Positions 12,335 through 27,636 of a stretch of 34,004 nt of DNA are shown here, in pieces. The notes beneath the pieces are model-generated. The model did no database searches. It saw nothing but the letters and a program-made list of their open reading frames with translations, and had not been told where the DNA came from. Source of the stretch: a virus. Each line of letters begins with the position of its first letter. The stretch's first letter is position 1. Made by a program: the position numbers and the translations under genes. The DNA lies in IMG/VR virus record IMGVR_UViG_3300030616_000059, positions 1-34,004 of that record; one strand, given 5' to 3'.

Positions 12335-12754
12335 ATGTTACCTGTAGAACAAATAAAACTAAATGAAGTAAGGGAAGCAATTAAAGCTATTCATGAATCT
12401 GGGTATCCTAAAAGGATTACATTTGTTGGGATACCAAAGTCTGATATAATCTGTAATTTTGTGAAGGCAGCTGATGAGATAACTAATCTTCCCCCAGTTG
12501 CAGCAAAACTTTACAATAAGATATTTAAGGATGAGATTGAGGATAACCCGAAACCAAAAAAACAAAGAATAGCTAAAAAAGAGGGAGTGATGTATAACTG
12601 CGTTAAAATGTTTAAGATGAATCCTGGTATTTCCCTTAGTGATCTTATTCTTAATCTTTCTGGAGAGTTTCCTACTTGTAAGAAAACAGTCACTCATGTT
12701 TATAGGGTGCTTCAGCTTGCTAATAGGGTGGAGAAGGATATTAAATGTCAGTAA
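12335..12754 (+). CDS. Hypothetical protein, 139 aa
   Basis: ATG 12335 is chosen over GTG 12317, because GAAGGAGGATAATAAA lies directly before it and the GTG is part of the SD region. The N-terminal half contains a beta-helix mix (KRITFVGIPKSDIICNFVKAADEI); the middle is Lys/Pro-rich (NPKPKKQRIAKKEG), probably a linker. The C-terminal 55 residues (YNCVKMFKMNPGISLSDLILNL ... TVTHVYRVLQLANRV) resemble a small winged or simple HTH module. I do not recognise the family; regulatory DNA binding is a possibility. It overlaps the radical SAM gene by 10 nt and is the first gene after the promoter. Confidence 0.65.
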   Translation: MLPVEQIKLNEVREAIKAIHESGYPKRITFVGIPKSDIICNFVKAADEITNLPPVAAKLYNKIFKDEIEDNPKPKKQRIAKKEGVMYNCVKMFKMNPGISLSDLILNLSGEFPTCKKTVTHVYRVLQLANRVEKDIKCQ

Positions 12755-13869
12755 TATCAGAACAAGAGTTAACAGATATATTGAAAAGCAGTAAAGATGT
12801 TGTGTTGTTTGAACCAATATACACAGTCAAACACATACCTCTTGGATTAGCGAAGATATCAACTTTTGTTAAGCAAAATGGAGGCAAGACTCATTACAGA
12901 CGGCAATACATGAACTATGGGGAAGACCTGATTTGTATCACATCCCTTTTTACATATGATATAAACTATGTTTTTATGGCTATTCAAAATATGTTTTTTC
13001 TTAATCCCAATGCAAACATAGTAGTGGGCGGGATATCAGCTACCCTTATCCCTGATCATATACAAAACAGGTTTAAAAATATAAAGATATTCAAGGGGTA
13101 CAGCAAAGCATTGGATTTATGCCCACCTGATTACAGTATTGATTATGGCAGGGAAGACCCGTGGGATAAAATGTCTCATGTGTTTACAAGCAGGGGCTGT
13201 CCTAACAGGTGTCAGTATTGTGCTGTATGGAGACTGGAACCAGATAGCTGGATGAATCCTACGTGGAAGGAACATATAAGTGATACTCTTCCTTATGTAA
13301 CTATATCTGATAATAATATGTCTTCCCTGCCAATTTCTCGTATAGAAGATATAGTGCGGTACTGCTGTGATAATAATAAGAAGGTATGTTTTGATAATGG
13401 CTTTGATTGTAAATTTATAACTGATGACATGGCAAAGCTGATGTCTAATATTAAGTACTTCAAAAGTGGTATGCGTCTTGCTTTTGATCGGATAGAAGAA
13501 GATGGGGTTTTTCAAGAAGCAATAAGAAAACTTATAGCTAATGGTGTTCCTGCAAAGAATATTCTGGCTTTTGTATTATTCAATTTTAATGACACACCAA
13601 AGGAAGCCGAGTACAGAGCAAATGAATGTGTAAAGCTTGGCATTCGCCCCTACCCTCAACAATATGTACCACTCAATAAGAAAACGAGAAGACCCCCTTT
13701 TATCAGTAATAAGTGGACTGAGAAGTTAGTCAAGACTTTCAGGCACTTTTGGTTAATGGCAGGATATTACACAAAGATGTCTTTCTATGATTTTGTAAGT
13801 ATGCAGGATGAAACTAACGGCAAATATAAACTGGATGACGAATCGAAAGAGAAACTATATGCAAATTAA
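12745..13869 (+). CDS. Radical SAM enzyme, 374 aa
   Basis: The cluster-binding motif C152-x3-C156-x2-C159 in TSRGCPNRCQYCAVW is the hallmark of radical SAM enzymes, which use a [4Fe-4S] cluster and S-adenosylmethionine to make a 5'-deoxyadenosyl radical. The first 120 residues have the layout of a cobalamin-binding-like or Rossmann-like domain (PLGLAKISTFVKQNGG, then NANIVVGGISATLIPDHIQ), seen in B12-dependent radical SAM proteins. The B12 contact motif DxHxxG is not evident. The substrate is unknown. The methyltransferase start overlaps this stop by 11 nt, so a joint role in DNA or RNA base modification is plausible (inference). ATG 12745 has AGGGTGGAGAAGG upstream. Confidence 0.88.
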   Translation: MSVISEQELTDILKSSKDVVLFEPIYTVKHIPLGLAKISTFVKQNGGKTHYRRQYMNYGEDLICITSLFTYDINYVFMAIQNMFFLNPNANIVVGGISATLIPDHIQNRFKNIKIFKGYSKALDLCPPDYSIDYGREDPWDKMSHVFTSRGCPNRCQYCAVWRLEPDSWMNPTWKEHISDTLPYVTISDNNMSSLPISRIEDIVRYCCDNNKKVCFDNGFDCKFITDDMAKLMSNIKYFKSGMRLAFDRIEEDGVFQEAIRKLIANGVPAKNILAFVLFNFNDTPKEAEYRANECVKLGIRPYPQQYVPLNKKTRRPPFISNKWTEKLVKTFRHFWLMAGYYTKMSFYDFVSMQDETNGKYKLDDESKEKLYAN

Positions 13870-15783: not shown

Positions 15784-18369
15784 TTGCCAAAAGGTTTTTT
15801 TTCACAAGATAAGGTAATAGAAGAGAGCAGGATAAGTACAGCATCCTCAAAAAATGGGGCTAATTGCTATAAGTGTGGTCTGTATAAACACAGTATGCAC
15901 GGAAAGATGAAATATTCCGGTTTTGGCAAGAAGAAGGCACTAATTGTGGCTGAAGCCCCTGGGGTAGAGGAAGACAGGGTAGGAACCCAACTAGTTGGTA
16001 AGGTTGGGCAGAAGCTCAGGAAGGATTTAAAGAAGAGGAGGTTTTTTCTCGACAGGGATTTCTATAAAATAAATTCTGTAAACTGCCTTCCCTTGGAGCA
16101 TAGTGGTAGTAGGAAACCAACCCCAGAGCAGATAATTTGCTGCAGACCTAAAGTGGAGGAAGCAATAGAGGAATTAAATCCTGATTATATATGGCTTTTA
16201 GGTGGTGTTGCAGTAGAATCTTTCTACAGGGGGTATTTCAATGACAATTTGTCAATAACACGGTGGCGTGGTCTGTGTATCCCAGATCAGAGATATAAAG
16301 CACATATTATGCCACTTTATCACCCATCTTATATAGAGCGTAATTTAGATGATCCTGCCCTTATATCTATATATCAAAAAGACCTTGATAGGGCTTGTTT
16401 AGGCTTACAGAATTGCCCTGTAAGCGAACAAAACTTTAAAGACAAGGTTAGAGTCCTATTTTCCTATGAAGACGTTATCAGCGTACTTTCCAGCATCCTG
16501 AGCAGTAAACCAGAGAGTGTTTTCATAGATTTTGAGACTACAGGCAAGAAACCGTTCAAATTCGGACATAAATTACTGTCCATGTCAATAATGCCATCTG
16601 ATGAATACATTGCTTATTCCTTTCCACTTGATTTCAGGGGACATTTTACCCAAGAACAGCTAATAAGCATTTTTAATGTAGTAAAAGCCATTCTAGTGTG
16701 TCAGGAAATAGGAAAAGCAGCACAGAACATAAAATTTGAGCACCTGTGGGCTAAGGTCAAGTTGGGTATCACTATTTCTCCCTGGATTTGGGATACTAAT
16801 ACTTCAGCACATATTGAAGATAATAGGGCAGGATATTCTGGACTGAATTTTCAGGCATATATCAATTTTGGTGTTCTTCCTTATGATGGAAGCATAAAGA
16901 AGTTCAAAGAAGCCCCAACAGCTAATGACATAAATACTATGGAAGACCTGCATTTGCCTAACTTGTTGCTATATGGTGGATATGATTCCCTGTTTGGTGG
17001 GCTATTGCACAGAAAACAGGACATATATATAAAAAATGGTCGGAGAAGGGCTTGTGATTTCTTTCTTGAGAGTAATATAAATCTAGCTGAGATGCAGTAC
17101 AATGGTATATGTGCTGATGAAGAGTATTATCATAAACAGAAGGAAGAACTAGGCAGGATGATTGTTGATGCTAGAAAAGAACTGGACTTAAGCCCAGAAG
17201 CAGATCAATACAAAGCAGAGCGTGGCAGGGAAATAGACTTTACTTCTGATAATGATATTTTAGACCTATATTATAATATACTCAAAGCAGAGAAGATTTT
17301 TACTAAAAAAGGTAATCTTTCTATTGATAAACACGCCCTTGAGAGGATAAATCTAAAAATAAATGAAAAACTGTTATTTTTCCGAAAATTGCAGAAAGTG
17401 CATGGAACATATCTGAAACAATTCATGAGGGAAATTACATATGGTAAAATGCACCCATTTTATGATTTAGTAACTACTATAACATTCCGATCTTCATCAT
17501 ATGAACCAAATTTTCAGAATATTCCGGTAAGGGATGATTTCTCTATGAATATCTGTCGTGGCGGGATAGTACCTTCTGTTGGGAACAGGATACTTGAGGC
17601 AGATTTCAAGGGCATCGAAGTTGCTATTGGTTGTTGTTACCATAAAGATAAGAACATGATTGAATATGTTACTGATAGCTCGACTGATATGCACAGGGAT
17701 GTTGCTTGTGATATATGGATGCTCCCCCCAGAGGAGATATCCAAGAATATCCGTAGAGATGCTAAAGGTGGGTGGACTTTTCCTCAGTTCTATGGGTCAT
17801 ATTATGAAGAATGTGCAAGAAACCTGTGGAGACAATGTTTAAATCTGAAGACTAACTCTGGCATCACCCTTAAAAAGCATTTGAAGCAAAAAGGTATAGA
17901 TACATTTCATAAATTTGTGCGTCATTGTCAGGAAGCAGAGTATATCTTCTGGAGAGAGCGATTCAGGGAATATGATGATTGGAAGGAAAAGAACTATTTA
18001 CAGTATTGCGAGAATGGATATATAGAGACATTTTTCGGATTTAAGTTATATGGGCATATGTCAAAGAAAGACACGAGTAACTATCAGATACAAGGTACTG
18101 CTTTTCATTGTTTATTGTGGACTATGAATGAACTGATGAATACAGCAAAGGAAGAGAATTGGAAATCTCGTATATGCGGTCAGATACATGACTCACTCTT
18201 TATTGATCTAGTACCAGAAGAGAAAGACCATATTATAAATACAATAAAATATATAGGTACAGAGAAGATAAGAGAGAAGAATGAATGGATAAATGTTCCG
18301 CTGTCTATCGACTTTGAGATAACTCCGATAAATGGAAGTTGGAATCAGAAAGAGGAGATTAAAACATGA
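15784..18369 (+). CDS. Fusion of family 4-type uracil-DNA glycosylase and family A DNA polymerase, 861 aa
   Basis: Residues 25-215 form a family 4-type uracil-DNA glycosylase-like domain: CYKCGLY, AEAPGVEED (57-64), a second Cys region (NCLPLE ... IICCRP, possible Fe-S ligands), and HPSY (about 180). A 3'-5' exonuclease follows with IDFETTG (about 249), NIKFEHLW (about 315, Glu in place of the usual Asp) and YGGYD (about 398). The polymerase has motif A EADFKGIE (about 605), motif B RRDAKGGWTFPQFYG (about 658) and motif C QIHDSLF (about 800, Ser where Glu is common). A UDG-like N-terminus is known from the phage SPO1 polymerase. The start is TTG 15784, after AAGGAGTAAGTAAA. The domain may act in replication fidelity; whether the glycosylase is active is unknown. 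Confidence 0.92.
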   Translation: MPKGFFSQDKVIEESRISTASSKNGANCYKCGLYKHSMHGKMKYSGFGKKKALIVAEAPGVEEDRVGTQLVGKVGQKLRKDLKKRRFFLDRDFYKINSVNCLPLEHSGSRKPTPEQIICCRPKVEEAIEELNPDYIWLLGGVAVESFYRGYFNDNLSITRWRGLCIPDQRYKAHIMPLYHPSYIERNLDDPALISIYQKDLDRACLGLQNCPVSEQNFKDKVRVLFSYEDVISVLSSILSSKPESVFIDFETTGKKPFKFGHKLLSMSIMPSDEYIAYSFPLDFRGHFTQEQLISIFNVVKAILVCQEIGKAAQNIKFEHLWAKVKLGITISPWIWDTNTSAHIEDNRAGYSGLNFQAYINFGVLPYDGSIKKFKEAPTANDINTMEDLHLPNLLLYGGYDSLFGGLLHRKQDIYIKNGRRRACDFFLESNINLAEMQYNGICADEEYYHKQKEELGRMIVDARKELDLSPEADQYKAERGREIDFTSDNDILDLYYNILKAEKIFTKKGNLSIDKHALERINLKINEKLLFFRKLQKVHGTYLKQFMREITYGKMHPFYDLVTTITFRSSSYEPNFQNIPVRDDFSMNICRGGIVPSVGNRILEADFKGIEVAIGCCYHKDKNMIEYVTDSSTDMHRDVACDIWMLPPEEISKNIRRDAKGGWTFPQFYGSYYEECARNLWRQCLNLKTNSGITLKKHLKQKGIDTFHKFVRHCQEAEYIFWRERFREYDDWKEKNYLQYCENGYIETFFGFKLYGHMSKKDTSNYQIQGTAFHCLLWTMNELMNTAKEENWKSRICGQIHDSLFIDLVPEEKDHIINTIKYIGTEKIREKNEWINVPLSIDFEITPINGSWNQKEEIKT

Positions 18370-21628: not shown

Positions 21629-22734
21629 TGGCAAGGAAGAAGAAAGAAGTAATAGATGAGATAAATGATACTGTAGACCAGATAAAAGCTGATGAAGAAA
21701 TGGTACCTGTAGATGACCATCCTCCTGTATATACATTAGATGACCTTATTCCTACTGGATCAACAGTTCTCAACCTAGCCTGTTCCGATAACCCTTTCGG
21801 GGGTTATCGGAAAGGCACAATGGTAAATCTGATTGGTGACAGTAGCTCCGGTAAGACCCTGCTTGCCTTGACTGGTCTTGCAATGATGTGCCAGAATAAA
21901 CGGTTTGATAAATATAAGATACACTTCAATGATGCTGAGACTGCACTTGGATTTAACATTCCTAAGTTGTTTGGCAATAAACTTGCAGAAAGAATAGATA
22001 CAAGCCACATATCAAACGGGGTAGAAGATTTCTATGGATGGTTTTACAAACTATTAAAGAAGGGGGAACCTTTTGTTGCTATAGTAGATAGTTGGGATGC
22101 GTTGCGTACTATTGAAGAGGAAGAGAGGGCAAAACAGTATGCTAAAGACCCAACTAAGGTAAAAGGAACATTTGGTGCTTCAAAACAAAAAATGGCTTCA
22201 GAGATATTCAGGAATGTTGTTGGTGATATAAGAAATACGGAGAGCTTACTTATTATTATATCACAGACAAGAGATAACCTTAATGCTGGGTTGTTTGGTA
22301 ATACCAAGATTCGTTCAGGTGGTAATGCACTCAAGTTCTATGCATACCATGAGATATGGCTTGCTGTACTAAGCAAAGAATACAAACAGGTGCGTGGGAC
22401 TAAGTATGAGATAGGTATAGATACATTAATGAAGGTCAATAAGAATAAACTGTCAGGCAAGAAGAGAAACGGGAACATCCCAATATTTTATGACTACGGA
22501 GTTCATGATTTCTACTCCTGTATTGATTACCTTGTAAAAACCGGTGAGTGGAAAAAGAATGATTCTGGTGCTATTACGCCAACAGGTTTAATAGAAGGCT
22601 CCTATAAAAGAGATAACCTGGCATCAATAATTGCTCAGGATAATAAGTTTGGTAGTATGCAGGAGCTTGTTTGGGATGTTTGGAATGATATAGAAAACAA
22701 ACTGGCAATAGATTTACCAAGGAGATTTGAGTGA
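21628..22734 (+). CDS. RecA-like recombinase, 368 aa
   Basis: The RecA core is clear: Walker A GDSSSGKT (67-74) after FGGYRKGTMVNLIG, the DAETALGFN block near 110, Walker B FVAIVDSWDALR (about 147-158), and the ISQTRDNLN plus GNTKIRSGGNALKFYA segments (about 210-240) corresponding to the L2 region. It would form filaments on ssDNA and drive strand exchange in replication-coupled recombination. The C-terminal domain of cellular RecA appears replaced by a shorter tail. The start ATG overlaps the SSB stop (TAATG), showing coupling. Downstream genes are nucleases. Confidence 0.9.
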   Translation: MARKKKEVIDEINDTVDQIKADEEMVPVDDHPPVYTLDDLIPTGSTVLNLACSDNPFGGYRKGTMVNLIGDSSSGKTLLALTGLAMMCQNKRFDKYKIHFNDAETALGFNIPKLFGNKLAERIDTSHISNGVEDFYGWFYKLLKKGEPFVAIVDSWDALRTIEEEERAKQYAKDPTKVKGTFGASKQKMASEIFRNVVGDIRNTESLLIIISQTRDNLNAGLFGNTKIRSGGNALKFYAYHEIWLAVLSKEYKQVRGTKYEIGIDTLMKVNKNKLSGKKRNGNIPIFYDYGVHDFYSCIDYLVKTGEWKKNDSGAITPTGLIEGSYKRDNLASIIAQDNKFGSMQELVWDVWNDIENKLAIDLPRRFE

Positions 22735-23312
22735 TGAGTAAAAAAGGACCAAAATGGGAACGTGAGGTAGCAGTAATGTTGTCTAATTGGTGGACAGAAG
22801 GTGAAAGAGACGATGTATTTTGGAGGACAGCAGGTTCTGGTGCTCGTGCTACTACACGAGCAAAGAAGGGGAAGAGGACAGCCAATTCCAGTAGTGATTT
22901 GTGTGCTCTTGACGATGTTGGAAGACCTCTGGTAAAGCTTTGTTTAATTGAGGATAAGCGTGGGTATAACAAAGACTTTTCTGTTATTGATATGATTGAT
23001 AAAAAGAAAGGAGCACCCCCACTTCTTAAAAAATGGTTAGACAAGGCTAATACCGAATGTATATATAGTGGTAGAATATTCCCAATAATTATCCTTAAGA
23101 GAGACAGGCGTGTTCCTGTAGTAATACTGAATGATGAGCTAATTGATGAGCTTAATAGTGATTCTTGTCTGGATAACTTTCTCTGTTCTGGGTCTTATAT
23201 AAAATTGTGCCTAGAGTATAATGATGTCTATATTTTAAAGCTACATGATTTTATGTATTATGTTTCACCAGATACTATAAGAGATATTTGTGATTATCGT
23301 GACATAACCTAA
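22734..23312 (+). CDS. PD-(D/E)XK nuclease, Holliday-junction-resolvase-like, 192 aa
   Basis: The N-terminal part shows the pattern of small PD-(D/E)XK enzymes: GPKWEREVAVML (Glu about 9), NSSSDLCALD (Asp about 57) and LIEDKRGYN (E-x-K about 73-75), with basic residues around ARATTRAKKGKR. The C-terminal half (ILKRDRRVPVVILNDELIDEL) looks like an accessory subdomain. Such proteins next to RecA in phages are usually resolvases or recombination nucleases. ATG 22734 overlaps the RecA stop by one base; GTG 22731 is the alternative, with the SD AAGGAG at 22719-22724 suiting either. The exact DNA substrate is unknown. Confidence 0.7.
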   Translation: MSKKGPKWEREVAVMLSNWWTEGERDDVFWRTAGSGARATTRAKKGKRTANSSSDLCALDDVGRPLVKLCLIEDKRGYNKDFSVIDMIDKKKGAPPLLKKWLDKANTECIYSGRIFPIIILKRDRRVPVVILNDELIDELNSDSCLDNFLCSGSYIKLCLEYNDVYILKLHDFMYYVSPDTIRDICDYRDIT

Positions 23313-23925: not shown

Positions 23926-24221
23926 TGAATGGGCAGACTGCAAAGAGGCTTAGAAGGGAGACATATGGTGACTTCTCTTCACAGGAAAGAGAAGTGAAGA
24001 TGAAACCAGTAAGAGTCACTCGTCTTGTTGTTACTAAGTATAGGGAAGTAGGCAACCCCTTTACCAGAAAAGTAGAAAAAGTAAGGATAAAGAAGAAGGT
24101 TAAAACAGTAAAATATATTGCCTACAAAGCAGAGTGCGATCCTTTGAGGCTTAAATATAAGAGAAAGAAGAAAGAGTACTATGCAAACAAAAATACAGAG
24201 TATGATAGAAACGATAACTAA
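23925..24221 (+). CDS. Small basic phage protein (MNGxxAKxLR type), 98 aa
   Basis: The start MNGQTAKRLRRETYGDFSSQER resembles the N-terminus of a common phage hypothetical type that begins MNGKxAKxLRK and is followed by a short Lys-rich body. The protein is strongly basic (RVTRLVVTKYREV, KVRIKKKVKTVKYI) and ends in a charged tail, so nucleic-acid binding is likely. ATG 23925 follows GAGGGGGATGTATA and is coupled to the previous stop. The 3' end overlaps the next gene by about 40 nt. Confidence 0.65.
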   Translation: MNGQTAKRLRRETYGDFSSQEREVKMKPVRVTRLVVTKYREVGNPFTRKVEKVRIKKKVKTVKYIAYKAECDPLRLKYKRKKKEYYANKNTEYDRNDN

Positions 24222-24402
24222 TATAGGTATTGGGTATTTTGTTGCACTTGGTAGCCAGATTATAATTTTCCCTATATTTGGACTCAAAGCAAGCATATTA
24301 GATAACCTTGGTATAGGAGCCTGTTTTACAGTAATATCCATAATACGGAGTTACTGTGTCAGGAGAATGTTTAATTATATACATGAGAGACAAAGGGTAT
24401 GA
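24181..24402 (+). CDS. Small phage membrane protein (DUF7220-like), 73 aa
   Basis: The pattern MIETITNIGIGYFVALGSQI, then IIFPIFGLKASILDNLGIGACFTVISIIRSYCVRRMFN, matches a widespread phage membrane family I recall as DUF7220, with two hydrophobic helices (about 12-33 and 43-60) separated by a short loop with Pro and Gly. The C-terminus RRMFNYIHERQRV is basic and would stay in the cytoplasm. The function of the family is unknown. It begins inside the previous gene and ends with an ATGA overlap into the next. The exact family number is from memory. Confidence 0.7.
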   Translation: MQTKIQSMIETITNIGIGYFVALGSQIIIFPIFGLKASILDNLGIGACFTVISIIRSYCVRRMFNYIHERQRV

Positions 24403-25460
24403 TTAAAAACCTGTATATAGAAAACTTCATGTCTTGGAAAAAGGGGCTGTTCGAGTTTACTAATGGTGTTAATGTAATAATGGGGCAGAGCCACAAAGGT
24501 AAGTCAGCAGTAATTAAATCATTACGCTGGCTTATACACAATAAACCAAGAGGAGATGCTTTTAAGAACTGGGATACAGAGCCTGAAGATGAAGTAAGGG
24601 TACAAGTATGTACTGATGATGAATTTAAATTAGACAGGTTTAAGAATAAAAACCACAATGCTTATATGAAAGACGGTTTGGTTCTTCAAGCCCTTAAAAC
24701 TGATGTACCTGAAGAGATATCAAGTGTACTTAGACTTGATGACATAAATCTCCAGACTCAGTTTGAGGGGTACTTTCTCTTGCAGGATTCTCCTGGTGAA
24801 GTAGGTAAGAGACTTAATAAATTGGTCGGGCTGTCTGTAATTGATAAGGCAATCTCTACTGTTAACGGTATTGTTACCAAAGAAAAGAGTGATGTTGCTG
24901 TATCTGATGAAACGGTAGAGGGGATTAAGGAGAAACTGGGGGAGCTAAGTTGGGTTAATAAAGCTAAAGAAGAAGCAGAAAAAATACAGGTTCTTGTTGA
25001 TACTAATGATAAGATAGGGAAGATGGCTGTTAACATAGAGCACCTCCTAGCCAGTATTAAAAAAGAAGAGGAAGTACTCAAGAATATACGGAAGTTCTTG
25101 GAGATAGAGGAGGCTTGTACCAGGCTAAAGGAGACTATTGATACTTTAAATACCAGTACTAAGGAGTATAACACCTTAGTTTTTATACGAACAAAGATTA
25201 AGGCAACGAAACAGGATATAGAATTTACTACAAAATGGCTCGAAGTAATACCGAAGCACAAGGCTATTTGTAGTCTGGTTGATGAGTTTGATCAAATAAA
25301 TAATGAGCGAACAATGTTGTCTCGTTTGATAGAAGAGGTGCAGGATAAAAACAGGAAGATTCTCATACTATCTGATGATATTACTGAATACCAAGAGAAA
25401 AGAGATAACATAATGAAGGAGCTAAAGATATGTCCACTATGTGGTCAAAAAATATCTTAA
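24399..25460 (+). CDS. N-terminal half of an SbcC/Rad50-like ATPase, 353 aa
   Basis: The first 50 residues have the SMC/Rad50 N-terminal fold: LYIENFMSW, then Walker A GQSHKGKSAVIKSLRWL (about 29-45). A helical coiled-coil section follows (about 150-340), and the protein ends with ICPLCGQKIS, the CxxC of a Rad50-type zinc hook, within its last 10 residues. There is no ABC signature, Walker B or H-loop; these are in the separate gene at 27013. So the protein corresponds to Rad50 cut at the hook. It would associate with the C-terminal half and the SbcD-like nuclease at 25638 for DNA end processing. ATG 24399 overlaps the previous stop. Confidence 0.85.
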   Translation: MIKNLYIENFMSWKKGLFEFTNGVNVIMGQSHKGKSAVIKSLRWLIHNKPRGDAFKNWDTEPEDEVRVQVCTDDEFKLDRFKNKNHNAYMKDGLVLQALKTDVPEEISSVLRLDDINLQTQFEGYFLLQDSPGEVGKRLNKLVGLSVIDKAISTVNGIVTKEKSDVAVSDETVEGIKEKLGELSWVNKAKEEAEKIQVLVDTNDKIGKMAVNIEHLLASIKKEEEVLKNIRKFLEIEEACTRLKETIDTLNTSTKEYNTLVFIRTKIKATKQDIEFTTKWLEVIPKHKAICSLVDEFDQINNERTMLSRLIEEVQDKNRKILILSDDITEYQEKRDNIMKELKICPLCGQKIS

Positions 25461-25660
25461 AGAAGTTCAAGTACACACATTGCCCACAATGTGGTGAGGA
25501 TGTAACAACGCAAGTAGTGGCAATAATAGATATTATAAAAAAAGACAAGTTAGATGGACGTACAATACAATGTGGACGGTGTAAGACAAAGCTCTTAATC
25601 AAAGCTAGTTATTCTTTTGATATAGAAAGGAAATGTTATGAAGGTAGTGTGCCTAGCTGA
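25430..25660 (+). CDS. Small zinc-ribbon protein overlapping the Rad50 half, 76 aa
   Basis: ATG 25430 lies within the codons for the zinc hook of the previous gene, with AAGGAGCTAAAGAT upstream. The product has HCPQCGED (about 18-25) and QCGRCKTK (about 51-58), a clear zinc ribbon of the type CxxC-x(~29)-CxxC. It ends 23 nt into the SbcD-like gene. Four-Cys ribbons are common in transcription and nuclease partners; its position suggests a function related to SbcCD, but no specific role is known. Confidence 0.7.
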   Translation: MSTMWSKNILKKFKYTHCPQCGEDVTTQVVAIIDIIKKDKLDGRTIQCGRCKTKLLIKASYSFDIERKCYEGSVPS

Positions 25661-26564
25661 TTTACATCTCAGGTTGGGGAGACCTGAGATGCGTATAGAC
25701 AGTTATTACCTAACCCAATACCAGAAGCTGGAATTCTGTCTTCATTGGGCTATTGAACATGATGCTATTGTTGTTATATCTGGTGATGTGTTTGATTCTG
25801 CAAAGGCAAGTAATATGCTTTTACAGACTTATGTTGGGCTACTTGCCACTTATAAAGACGAATTGCCTATCTATTGTGTCTATGGGCAGCATGATATGAG
25901 GTATCATAGCACAGACACCAAAGATACACCACTGCGTGTTTTGTATGAAGCTGATGTGATAACTATATTAAATGCTCTTCCCCGTATTGATAAGAAAGAT
26001 AAGAAAGAACGCCCTGTATTATATGGAGCAGGGTGGGGAGAGGACATTCCATCTATTTCTGAAGATGACATTAAAATCCTTGTTACCCACAGGATGGTTA
26101 TAAATGATAAGCCCCTATGGGATGGGCAGACAGGTTACTCAGAAGGAAAGAAACTTCTTGAAGAGAACGATTTTGATCTTATAGTATCCGGTGACAATCA
26201 CCAATCATTTGTAATAAAGCATGAGGATAAGACCCTTGTAAATCCAGGCTCACTCATGCGTATGACAATAGCACAGAAGGATTATAAACCACACCTCCAT
26301 GTATACGATACTATTACTAGAGAAGTAGAGAGAATACCAATTCCTATAGAACCCCCCGCTAAAGTTTTTGATATAGAGAAAGCTGAAGTAAAGAAGGAGC
26401 GGAGTGAAGAGCTTGAGGCTTTTGTAGAATCCCTGTCTGAAGAGACACTTGTTTGTGGTCTTGATTTTAAGGATAATCTTGCTAAAGAAGTGAGGGAGAA
26501 TAAAGTAACTGGTGTTGAAAAACAAATAATAGATGAGGTCATGGAGGGGATAGAGGATGCGTGA
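25638..26564 (+). CDS. SbcD/Mre11-like nuclease, 308 aa
   Basis: The calcineurin-type phosphoesterase motifs are in order: DLHL (Asp8, His10), GDVFD (about 50), GQHD (83-86, where GNHD is the usual form), VTHRM (about 152), SGDNHQS (about 188, where GHxH is common) and NPGSLMR (about 204). This domain with the ATPase halves at 24399 and 27013 makes an SbcCD/Mre11-Rad50-like complex that processes DNA ends. The C-terminal 80 residues are helical and may bind the ATPase coil. ATG 25638 follows GAAAGGAAATGTT. The Asn to Gln change in the third motif should be checked for metal binding. Confidence 0.85.
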   Translation: MKVVCLADLHLRLGRPEMRIDSYYLTQYQKLEFCLHWAIEHDAIVVISGDVFDSAKASNMLLQTYVGLLATYKDELPIYCVYGQHDMRYHSTDTKDTPLRVLYEADVITILNALPRIDKKDKKERPVLYGAGWGEDIPSISEDDIKILVTHRMVINDKPLWDGQTGYSEGKKLLEENDFDLIVSGDNHQSFVIKHEDKTLVNPGSLMRMTIAQKDYKPHLHVYDTITREVERIPIPIEPPAKVFDIEKAEVKKERSEELEAFVESLSEETLVCGLDFKDNLAKEVRENKVTGVEKQIIDEVMEGIEDA

Positions 26565-26784
26565 GAGGACTACTTATCTAACAACTGATGAATATAATTT
26601 TATAAAGAAGCTTGGGTCTTTTTCTAAATCTAAATTATCTCGTTTGGAACTTCTGTCTAATTATTTAGCTTCAATAGAACTCAGGGGTAATTGGATAGAT
26701 GATAATATTGGTCTTGACATAAACAAGGATTCGATAATTATTTTAACAAAAGATGAGATTGAAAAGGAGGGGATAAATGGATGA
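26557..26784 (+). CDS. Hypothetical protein in the SbcCD locus, 75 aa
   Basis: I do not recognise this protein. ATG 26557 overlaps the nuclease stop with GGAGGGGATAGAGG upstream. It is helical (TTDEYNFIKKLGSFSKSKLSRLELLSNYLASIEL) with a short C-terminal acidic, hydrophobic part (DSIIILTKDEIEKEG). No Cys or membrane segment. It is coupled to its neighbours (overlap of 8 nt each side) and sits between the nuclease and the second ATPase half. Confidence 0.6.
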   Translation: MRERTTYLTTDEYNFIKKLGSFSKSKLSRLELLSNYLASIELRGNWIDDNIGLDINKDSIIILTKDEIEKEGING

Positions 26785-27019
26785 GAAAGTAATAAAGGAT
26801 TTAGAGAAACTGGATAAGGAAATAAAGAATGCTCAGGAAGACAAAGCCAGATTAGAAGGCAGATTGGAGACGCTTTATGGTCAGCTGAAAGAAGAGTTTG
26901 ATATAGATACCATAGAGGGAGCAGAGAAACGACTTAGAGAAATAAAAGCTGTGATGGAAGAAAAGAGTAAGCAGATTGATGAACAGTATACAGCACTTAA
27001 GGAGGGGTATGAATGGTAG
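26777..27019 (+). CDS. Coiled-coil protein in the split Rad50 locus, 80 aa
   Basis: ATG 26777 follows AAAAGGAGGGGATAA. The protein is nearly all charged helix with heptad-like spacing (LEKLDKEIKNAQEDKARLEGRLETLYGQL, then KRLREIKAVMEEKSKQIDEQY). It has no catalytic motif. Because it lies immediately before the gene for the second ATPase half and overlaps it by 7 nt, it may supply a separate piece of the coiled coil of the split Rad50, but that is only a hypothesis. Confidence 0.65.
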   Translation: MDEKVIKDLEKLDKEIKNAQEDKARLEGRLETLYGQLKEEFDIDTIEGAEKRLREIKAVMEEKSKQIDEQYTALKEGYEW

Positions 27020-27636
27020 CTTTTGATAATAAAGATTTCCAGGTTATCAAAAAGAAGATTGATAGTAGCATAGCCGAAAGAACCGTTCTCAGAAAACAGC
27101 TTAAAGATGAGACAGATAATAATATATATCATAAGGAGCGGTTATTAGGGGCAGAGAAGGCTCGTATACGGATACAGCTAGTTGCAAGGAAAACACAAGA
27201 GAACCTGAGATATCATATTGAAAATATAGTATCTCTTGCTCTTTCTGCGGTATTCCCTGACCCCCCAGAGTTCTGTGCTGAATTTGTTACCAAGAGGAAT
27301 CAACCTGAGTGTAACCTTATGTTTGTGGAAAACGGACAGGAGTATAAACCTATTGATGGTAGTGGTGGTGGTCCTCTTGATGTTGCTTCCTTTGCTTTGC
27401 GTACTACATTCTGGAGTCTTAACAAGAACAGGAGAACACTCATTCTTGATGAGCCATTTAAATATGTATCCCCTGATCTGCAGAGTAAGGTATCTGATAT
27501 GTTAAGGTTGGTATCTGATAAGCTTGAGTTACAGATCATAATGGTGTCTCATGCAGAAGATATAAACACATCTGCAGATAAAACATTTCAGGTTGTAAAA
27601 GAAAAAGGCGAGTCAAAGATTATTGAAAAAAACTAA
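27013..27636 (+). CDS. C-terminal half of an SbcC/Rad50-like ATPase, 207 aa
   Basis: The protein begins with a helical region (about 1-75) that matches the returning coiled-coil arm and then contains the parts missing from the gene at 24399: the ABC signature IDGSGGGPLDVASFALR (about 114-130), Walker B RTLILDEPFKYVSPD (about 141-155) and the H-loop MVSHAED (177-183). It has no Walker A and no CxxC hook. With the other half it would complete one ATPase head. ATG 27013 follows AGGAGGGGTATGA. The promoter at 27625 overlaps its stop. Confidence 0.87.
   Translation: MVAFDNKDFQVIKKKIDSSIAERTVLRKQLKDETDNNIYHKERLLGAEKARIRIQLVARKTQENLRYHIENIVSLALSAVFPDPPEFCAEFVTKRNQPECNLMFVENGQEYKPIDGSGGGPLDVASFALRTTFWSLNKNRRTLILDEPFKYVSPDLQSKVSDMLRLVSDKLELQIIMVSHAEDINTSADKTFQVVKEKGESKIIEKN

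Follow-up and report, generated by a model that had tools for sequence, protein, structure and literature searches.

The four phage genes described here probably encode a divergent Mre11-Rad50 (SbcCD) complex, in which two chains would make up the ATPase head and a one-way arm would end in a terminal zinc hook. The existence of this Mre11-Rad50 variant, as a recurrent and widespread arrangement, is real. The window analyzed (the whole stretch of 34,004 bases) is the complete contig of IMG/VR virus record IMGVR_UViG_3300030616_000059, which is a fragment of a phage genome. A first-pass annotation had named six open reading frames in it, all of which were found (Table 1), and had proposed that Rad50 comes here in two pieces, of which only one chain bears a hook, possibly along with a separate coil subunit. 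The half that carries Walker A is referred to below as RadN, the half that carries the signature and Walker B as RadC, and the coil protein as coil80.

Table 1. Features of the split Rad50 block, in window coordinates.
Feature	Position	Strand	Description
RadN	24399..25460	+	353 aa; Walker A, head N-lobe, helical arm of 47-aa repeats, terminal CPLCG
CPLC, terminal zinc-hook motif (RadN codons 345-348)	25431..25442	+	only GQKIS and the stop codon come after it
Zinc ribbon	25430..25660	+	76 aa; overlaps the RadN end; this window only
SbcD/Mre11-type nuclease	25638..26564	+	308 aa; phosphoesterase motifs DLH, GD, G(Q)HD, H, G(D)NH
75-aa hypothetical	26557..26784	+	this window only
coil80	26777..27019	+	80 aa; helical hairpin H3-41, turn 42-45, H46-78; directly upstream of RadC
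RadC	27013..27636	+	207 aa; start codon overlaps the coil80 end; returning coil of ~57 aa, no hook

The four genes that had been placed between the two halves are all present in the window, but only two of them belong to a conserved block, the zinc ribbon and the 75-residue hypothetical protein each giving a single match among the HMM-annotated loci. Since these two genes are confined to the window, the conserved block consists of the four genes RadN, SbcD, coil80 and RadC; the other two, rejected as members of the complex, are local inserts, and the zinc ribbon probably lies outside the conserved complex. The neighbours of the block in the window are a polymerase, a clamp, a clamp loader, a UvsX-like recombinase and a nuclease. 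The polymerase gene (15784-18369) encodes a family A enzyme with an N-terminal uracil-DNA-glycosylase-like domain (PF03167, residues 50-191), a radical SAM protein (PHROG 9298) is encoded among the replication genes at 12745-13869, and a DUF7220 protein (24181-24402), which has a relative near RadN in locus L067, lies directly upstream of RadN and overlaps its start.

RadN had been read as a protein with Walker A and a coil that ends at CPLCG, and the window sequence bears this out, with the Walker A motif GQSHKGKS, a long helix and a terminal CPLCGQKIS. It matches AAA_23 (PF13476) at 8e-9, its sequence matches among solved Rad50 structures are to N-half chains only (1ii8_A and 1f2t_A), and the best Foldseek match of its model is the Rad50 N-half 1f2u_A (E 1.9e-6); the Walker A lobe of Rad50 is therefore present in RadN. 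In the AF2 model of the RadN monomer (pLDDT 90, pTM 0.44) the head is followed by a long helix that ends in a knuckle, and the residues C345, P346 and C348 are conserved in the family alignment. The CxxC motif of a zinc hook is found inside the last 60 residues of 77 of the 79 distinct RadN sequences, mostly as CPLC or CPFC, and the tail beyond it is usually 2-10 residues long (as in CPLCGRGE and CPLCKK), which places the hook at the extreme C-terminus of the chain with no internal apex. There is likewise no globular hinge of the SMC type, since RadN ends 5 residues past CPLC and its AF2 model has no hinge domain. A CCHH finger completed by a histidine after CPxC was considered and rejected, because such a histidine occurs in only 15 of 76 viral RadN tails and is common only in plasmid fusions. 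One RadN (locus L038, 4163-5263) ends in CPVTGEYC and not in CPxC, which may be an altered terminal metal site.

RadC, for its part, had been read as having a returning coil, signature, Walker B and H-loop and no hook. The motifs it contains are the ABC signature SGGGPLDVASFALR, Walker B ILDEPF (within LILDEPF) and the H-loop SH of SHAED (within VSHAED), and CxxC was found in none of 91 RadC sequences. It matches only the C-half of solved Rad50 (1f2t_B and 3qkr_B, E ~7e-7), its residues G120, D123, D146, E147, P148, Q174 and H180 are invariant across 70 alignment rows, and it is thus the chain with the Rad50 lobe that comprises signature, Walker B and H-loop. A precedent for one head made by two chains is available, because the solved Pyrococcus furiosus head 1f2t consists of separate chains A and B of ~149 residues, of which RadN matches A and RadC matches B. 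In PHROGs the halves stand in separate families, 16465 ('exonuclease') and 15167 ('ATPase'), in agreement with how the two halves are annotated in Bacillus phage vB_BboS-125.

The distribution of the block was mapped with a profile scan that found RadC relatives in 385 IMG/VR contigs, of which the best 80 were retrieved together with 13 genome contigs; the survey, annotated with HMMs, comprises 109 sources including the window, some of them near-duplicates. A scan of viral contigs with the single RadN sequence gave no matches. All four genes in the order RadN-SbcD-coil80-RadC are present in 89 retrieved loci and in the complete genome of phage Mvi-JY20, a figure which is not a census of split versus fused forms, since the loci were sought with a split-type RadC. 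RadN precedes SbcD in 91 of 91 cases, SbcD precedes coil80 in 96 of 97 and coil80 precedes RadC in 99 of 99, and RecA/UvsX, an ssb-like gene and clamp-loader genes usually precede the block. A full-length SbcC elsewhere in the genome would count against the two-piece reading; none was found in the window, a fragment of the phage genome that has RadN only, or in 32 related records, some of them complete phages, where the above-cut-off AAA_23 matches all lie in open reading frames of at most 472 residues and where RadC occurs exactly once per record. The two lobes are accordingly carried by two chains, and not by one polypeptide, both in the window and in complete viral blocks. It is on this recurrence in dozens of loci, and on the gene order, that the proposal of a Rad50 in two pieces, one of them with the hook, and of a coil subunit apart from both stands, and two further lines of evidence, rate covariation and natural RadC-RadN fusions, add to it.

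The pairwise distances of RadN, RadC and SbcD are correlated with r between 0.62 and 0.72 (0.65 for RadN and RadC), and those of coil80 correlate with the other three at 0.38-0.45, while the block proteins correlate with the neighbouring RecA and ssb at 0.18-0.40 (about 0.26). Such covariation (partial Mantel p 0.001) fits a complex of the four proteins, though inheritance as a block can also produce it. The SbcD gene in the block supplies the partner nuclease of the Mre11 type, with phosphoesterase motifs kept in 82 sequences. Within this SbcD family, the Asn of GNHD is replaced by Gln (GQHD) in 51 of 82 and the first His of GHxH by Asp (GDxH) in 66 of 82, changes which might possibly reflect a different metal preference.

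The halves also occur joined in nature. A 691-residue fusion in Acidithiobacillus (L109) has RadC first and RadN second, with a C-terminal CPFCG, and the same permuted fusion is found on megaplasmids of Variovorax, Bosea, Methylorubrum, Vibrio, Pseudomonas, Acidiphilium, Alteromonas, Aeromonas and Rhizobium, again with a terminal hook, a coil open reading frame directly upstream and SbcD directly downstream. These megaplasmid genes (L110-L120) are annotated as 'AAA family ATPase' or hypothetical. Of 398 genomes sampled from the phylum, 2 have the permuted fusion, that of L109 itself among them, and no such fusion was found in viral contigs. A Jeotgalibacillus plasmid has a different arrangement, an SbcD-RadN fusion that also ends in a hook and has coil80 after it, with RadC elsewhere on the same plasmid. 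In an N-lobe tree, which is built on a short alignment, has long branches and carries no inferred root, the single-chain SbcCs fall on one side of a branch with support 86 and the permuted fusions cluster together (99) next to the split forms; this topology is compatible with a single ancient split and a subsequent refusion head-to-head.

Two readings that would remove the composite enzyme altogether can be weighed against this evidence. If the split were an assembly error, a frameshift or an interrupted gene, it would not be expected to return with its gene order unchanged across dozens of divergent contigs as well as in complete genomes of cultured phages, with conserved genes between the halves and with a RadN that stops at a conserved natural terminus, and this reading, refuted by the recurrence of the arrangement, retains a negligible probability. 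The notion that RadN and RadC are degenerate ATPase fragments which act independently, with no Rad50 head, draws on the distances between block genes, which reach thousands of bases in some loci, and on Microbacterium phage Magritte, in which RadC (gp2) and RadN (gp155) are 93 kb apart (L014/L015). It is nevertheless highly improbable, because each half retains solely its own catalytic motifs, nearly invariant, and because the halves are joined in natural fusions and their rates covary. The Magritte RadN has no CxxC, and no coil gene was recognized in that phage; in Tunturiibacter phage Tunturi_5 (L016) RadC was found and RadN was not recognized, and gp23, an 'exonuclease recombination-associated protein', is encoded nearby.

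The arm of RadN has an unusual construction. Its length between head end and hook clusters at 146, 193 and 240 residues, a step of 47, and the autocorrelation over 72 arms has a sharp peak at lag 47 (z = 28, or 8.1 when the null preserves the hydrophobic pattern), although these z-values overstate independence because the sequences in the set are related. In the RadN of the window itself the best lag is also 47 (z = 3.8), and each 47-residue repeat includes a stretch of ~16 residues without conserved hydrophobics. The arm of ~190 residues stands against a RadC coil of 57, and the RadC coil (57 +/- 5) and coil80 (83 +/- 6) stay constant while the RadN arm varies, with Spearman correlations to arm length that are not significant (0.04 for coil80 and 0.17 for the RadC coil). 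Complete canonical SbcCs, by comparison, have arm C/N ratios of 0.94-1.07 (loci L132 and L134, which are cut by the locus end, are left out), with lags of 7, 14 and 21 and no lag-47 signal. The hook is thus not at an apex between arms of matching length, and since the phage form departs from canonical Rad50 in this respect as well as in being more than one chain, it is classed as a variant and not as an ordinary member of the family.

The remaining component, coil80, is an undescribed protein family conserved directly upstream of RadC. Its AF2 model is a confident helical hairpin (pLDDT 95.5) with a helix of 39 residues, about the length of one RadN repeat; no CxxC was found in 81 coil80 sequences, and a Foldseek search gave no meaningful match. 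One profile match (locus L066) raised the possibility of homology to the RadN repeat, which was rejected at an hhalign probability of 5-9%. The coil genes of Bacillus phage vB_BboS-125 and of most plasmid fusions are weakly similar to coil80 (profile-profile E 6.5e-6, probability 85). It is most likely a separate structural subunit that packs against the arm or against the coil of RadC, but it could instead be a regulator.

What pairs with the long RadN arm has to be judged from lengths and positions, since the AF2 model is of a monomer, from which the pairing partner cannot be read. Because the lengths of the RadC coil and coil80 are independent of that of the RadN arm, RadC and a single coil80 do not together pair with the distal arm from end to end. 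Antiparallel end-to-end pairing would couple the lengths, so that their independence, with an arm that varies in 47-residue steps beside partners that do not, favours an arrangement in which a RadN dimer has its two helices wound in parallel as a coiled coil up to a shared hook and coil80 lies head-proximal, near the RadC coil. The hooks on both tips favour parallel alignment, and the coil80 gene is contiguous with that of RadC, which it overlaps by a median of 7 nt, as would suit a head-proximal position; against this, the stretch in each repeat that lacks conserved hydrophobics is unlike a simple continuous heptad coil, and the pairing of a dimer is not visible in the monomer model. We regard this parallel arrangement as a credible proposal that falls somewhat short of an even chance. 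In the alternative, several coil80 hairpins would dock along the 47-residue units and take the place of the missing returning strand, an idea that would account for the ~130 residues of partner helix that the RadN arm is missing, for the quantized arm length and the agreement of the repeat with the coil80 helix, and for the presence of the coil gene in essentially every complete block and of a similar gene by the permuted fusions. It is unlikely, given that coil80 has no sequence relation to the repeat or to an arm partner and that the plasmid fusions, whose arms show no 47-residue period, retain the coil gene all the same.

In the four-gene complex that we favour, RadN would contribute the Walker A lobe and RadC the signature and Walker B lobe of a single ATPase head into which both chains fold, and SbcD would dock on this composite head as the nuclease. 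The RadN arm would run one way, as ~190 helical residues of tandem 47-residue repeats, to the CPxC at its terminus, RadC would pair with only the head-proximal part of it (~57 residues), and the coil80 hairpin would dock on either the arm or the RadC coil. In canonical Rad50, internal hooks share one zinc ion; here, two RadN tips would do so, tethering two heads. The complex would serve the phage recombination and replication module, presumably in end processing and recombination-dependent replication. The function of Rad50 is usually explained by a continuous out-and-back arm that closes a ring at the hook, and the asymmetry of the arm together with its 47-residue repeat suggests that the four-gene complex would, as the first-pass annotation anticipated, be mechanically unlike the single-chain enzyme.

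A more far-reaching proposal, which we put forward only tentatively and hold to be doubtful as a whole, is that of a distinct, widespread Rad50 class with a one-way arm of two, three or four 47-residue units and a terminal zinc hook, in which a cladding of hairpin subunits would replace the returning strand and the number of repeats would set the reach, and which would later have been re-fused head-to-head, in permuted form, on megaplasmids. Whatever the fate of that proposal, the phage form presents a strand without a turn at the hook, an asymmetric arm whose repeats can be counted and an additional conserved subunit, and so offers natural variants with which to ask whether hook and arm serve tethering, ring closure or length measuring. 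Many genes of phages and megaplasmids that now stand as exonuclease, ATPase, AAA family ATPase or hypothetical also receive a corrected annotation from this analysis, which brings in coil80 as a previously undescribed protein family.

No description of a two-chain phage Rad50, of the coil subunit or of the permuted form was found in the open-access literature. SbcC and SbcD are described as practically universal in jumbo phages, in a part of an article that does not mention a split (PMC7824862), and the Rad50 hook is known as a stable dimerizer that is interchangeable with the SMC hinge (PMC6969161). SbcD-SbcC fusions have been described in Mimivirus (R555) and in Bacillus phage 0305phi8-36, the latter without one NTPase segment (PMC3175470), as would be expected of a RadN-only fusion; the nuclease and ATPase are related to those studied here, but a split Rad50 or a coil subunit was not recognized there, and the 2007 genomics paper on 0305phi8-36 does not mention SbcC. 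Escherichia phage vB_EcoM_IME392 likewise has a related nuclease and ATPase, but with a full single-chain SbcC and an internal hook.

Closer counterparts exist in other genomes. Bacillus phage vB_BboS-125 has the same split halves with a terminal CPLC (gp32 and gp35, PHROGs 16465 and 15167), a 78-residue coil gene ahead of RadC, and also an SbcD gene, which is unannotated and lies in the stretch between gp36 and gp37 (L013 7992-8972, NC_048735.1 ~22426-23253); it differs in that the halves are annotated as unrelated genes, an AP2 gene lies between them and SbcD follows RadC. The complete genome of Microcystis phage Mvi-JY20 (PP438412) has the RadN-SbcD-coil-RadC operon at 87229-90056, all annotated as hypothetical, with divergent sequence, a CSQC hook and a coil that is assigned by position, without a significant profile match. 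The megaplasmid 'AAA family ATPase' genes share the RadC and RadN domains, the terminal hook, the upstream coil gene and the downstream SbcD, but have the halves fused as RadC-RadN and lack the 47-residue periodicity. With the canonical SbcCD and Mre11-Rad50 enzymes (E. coli SbcCD, T4 gp46/gp47) the phage form has in common the motifs of the ABC head, a CPxC hook, an Mre11-type nuclease gene alongside and a recombination context; but where canonical SbcCD is one chain with an internal hook between symmetric arms, the phage form has two chains, a hook at the end of a chain and a one-way arm, together with a coil80 subunit and a 47-residue repeat that have no equivalent in the canonical enzyme.
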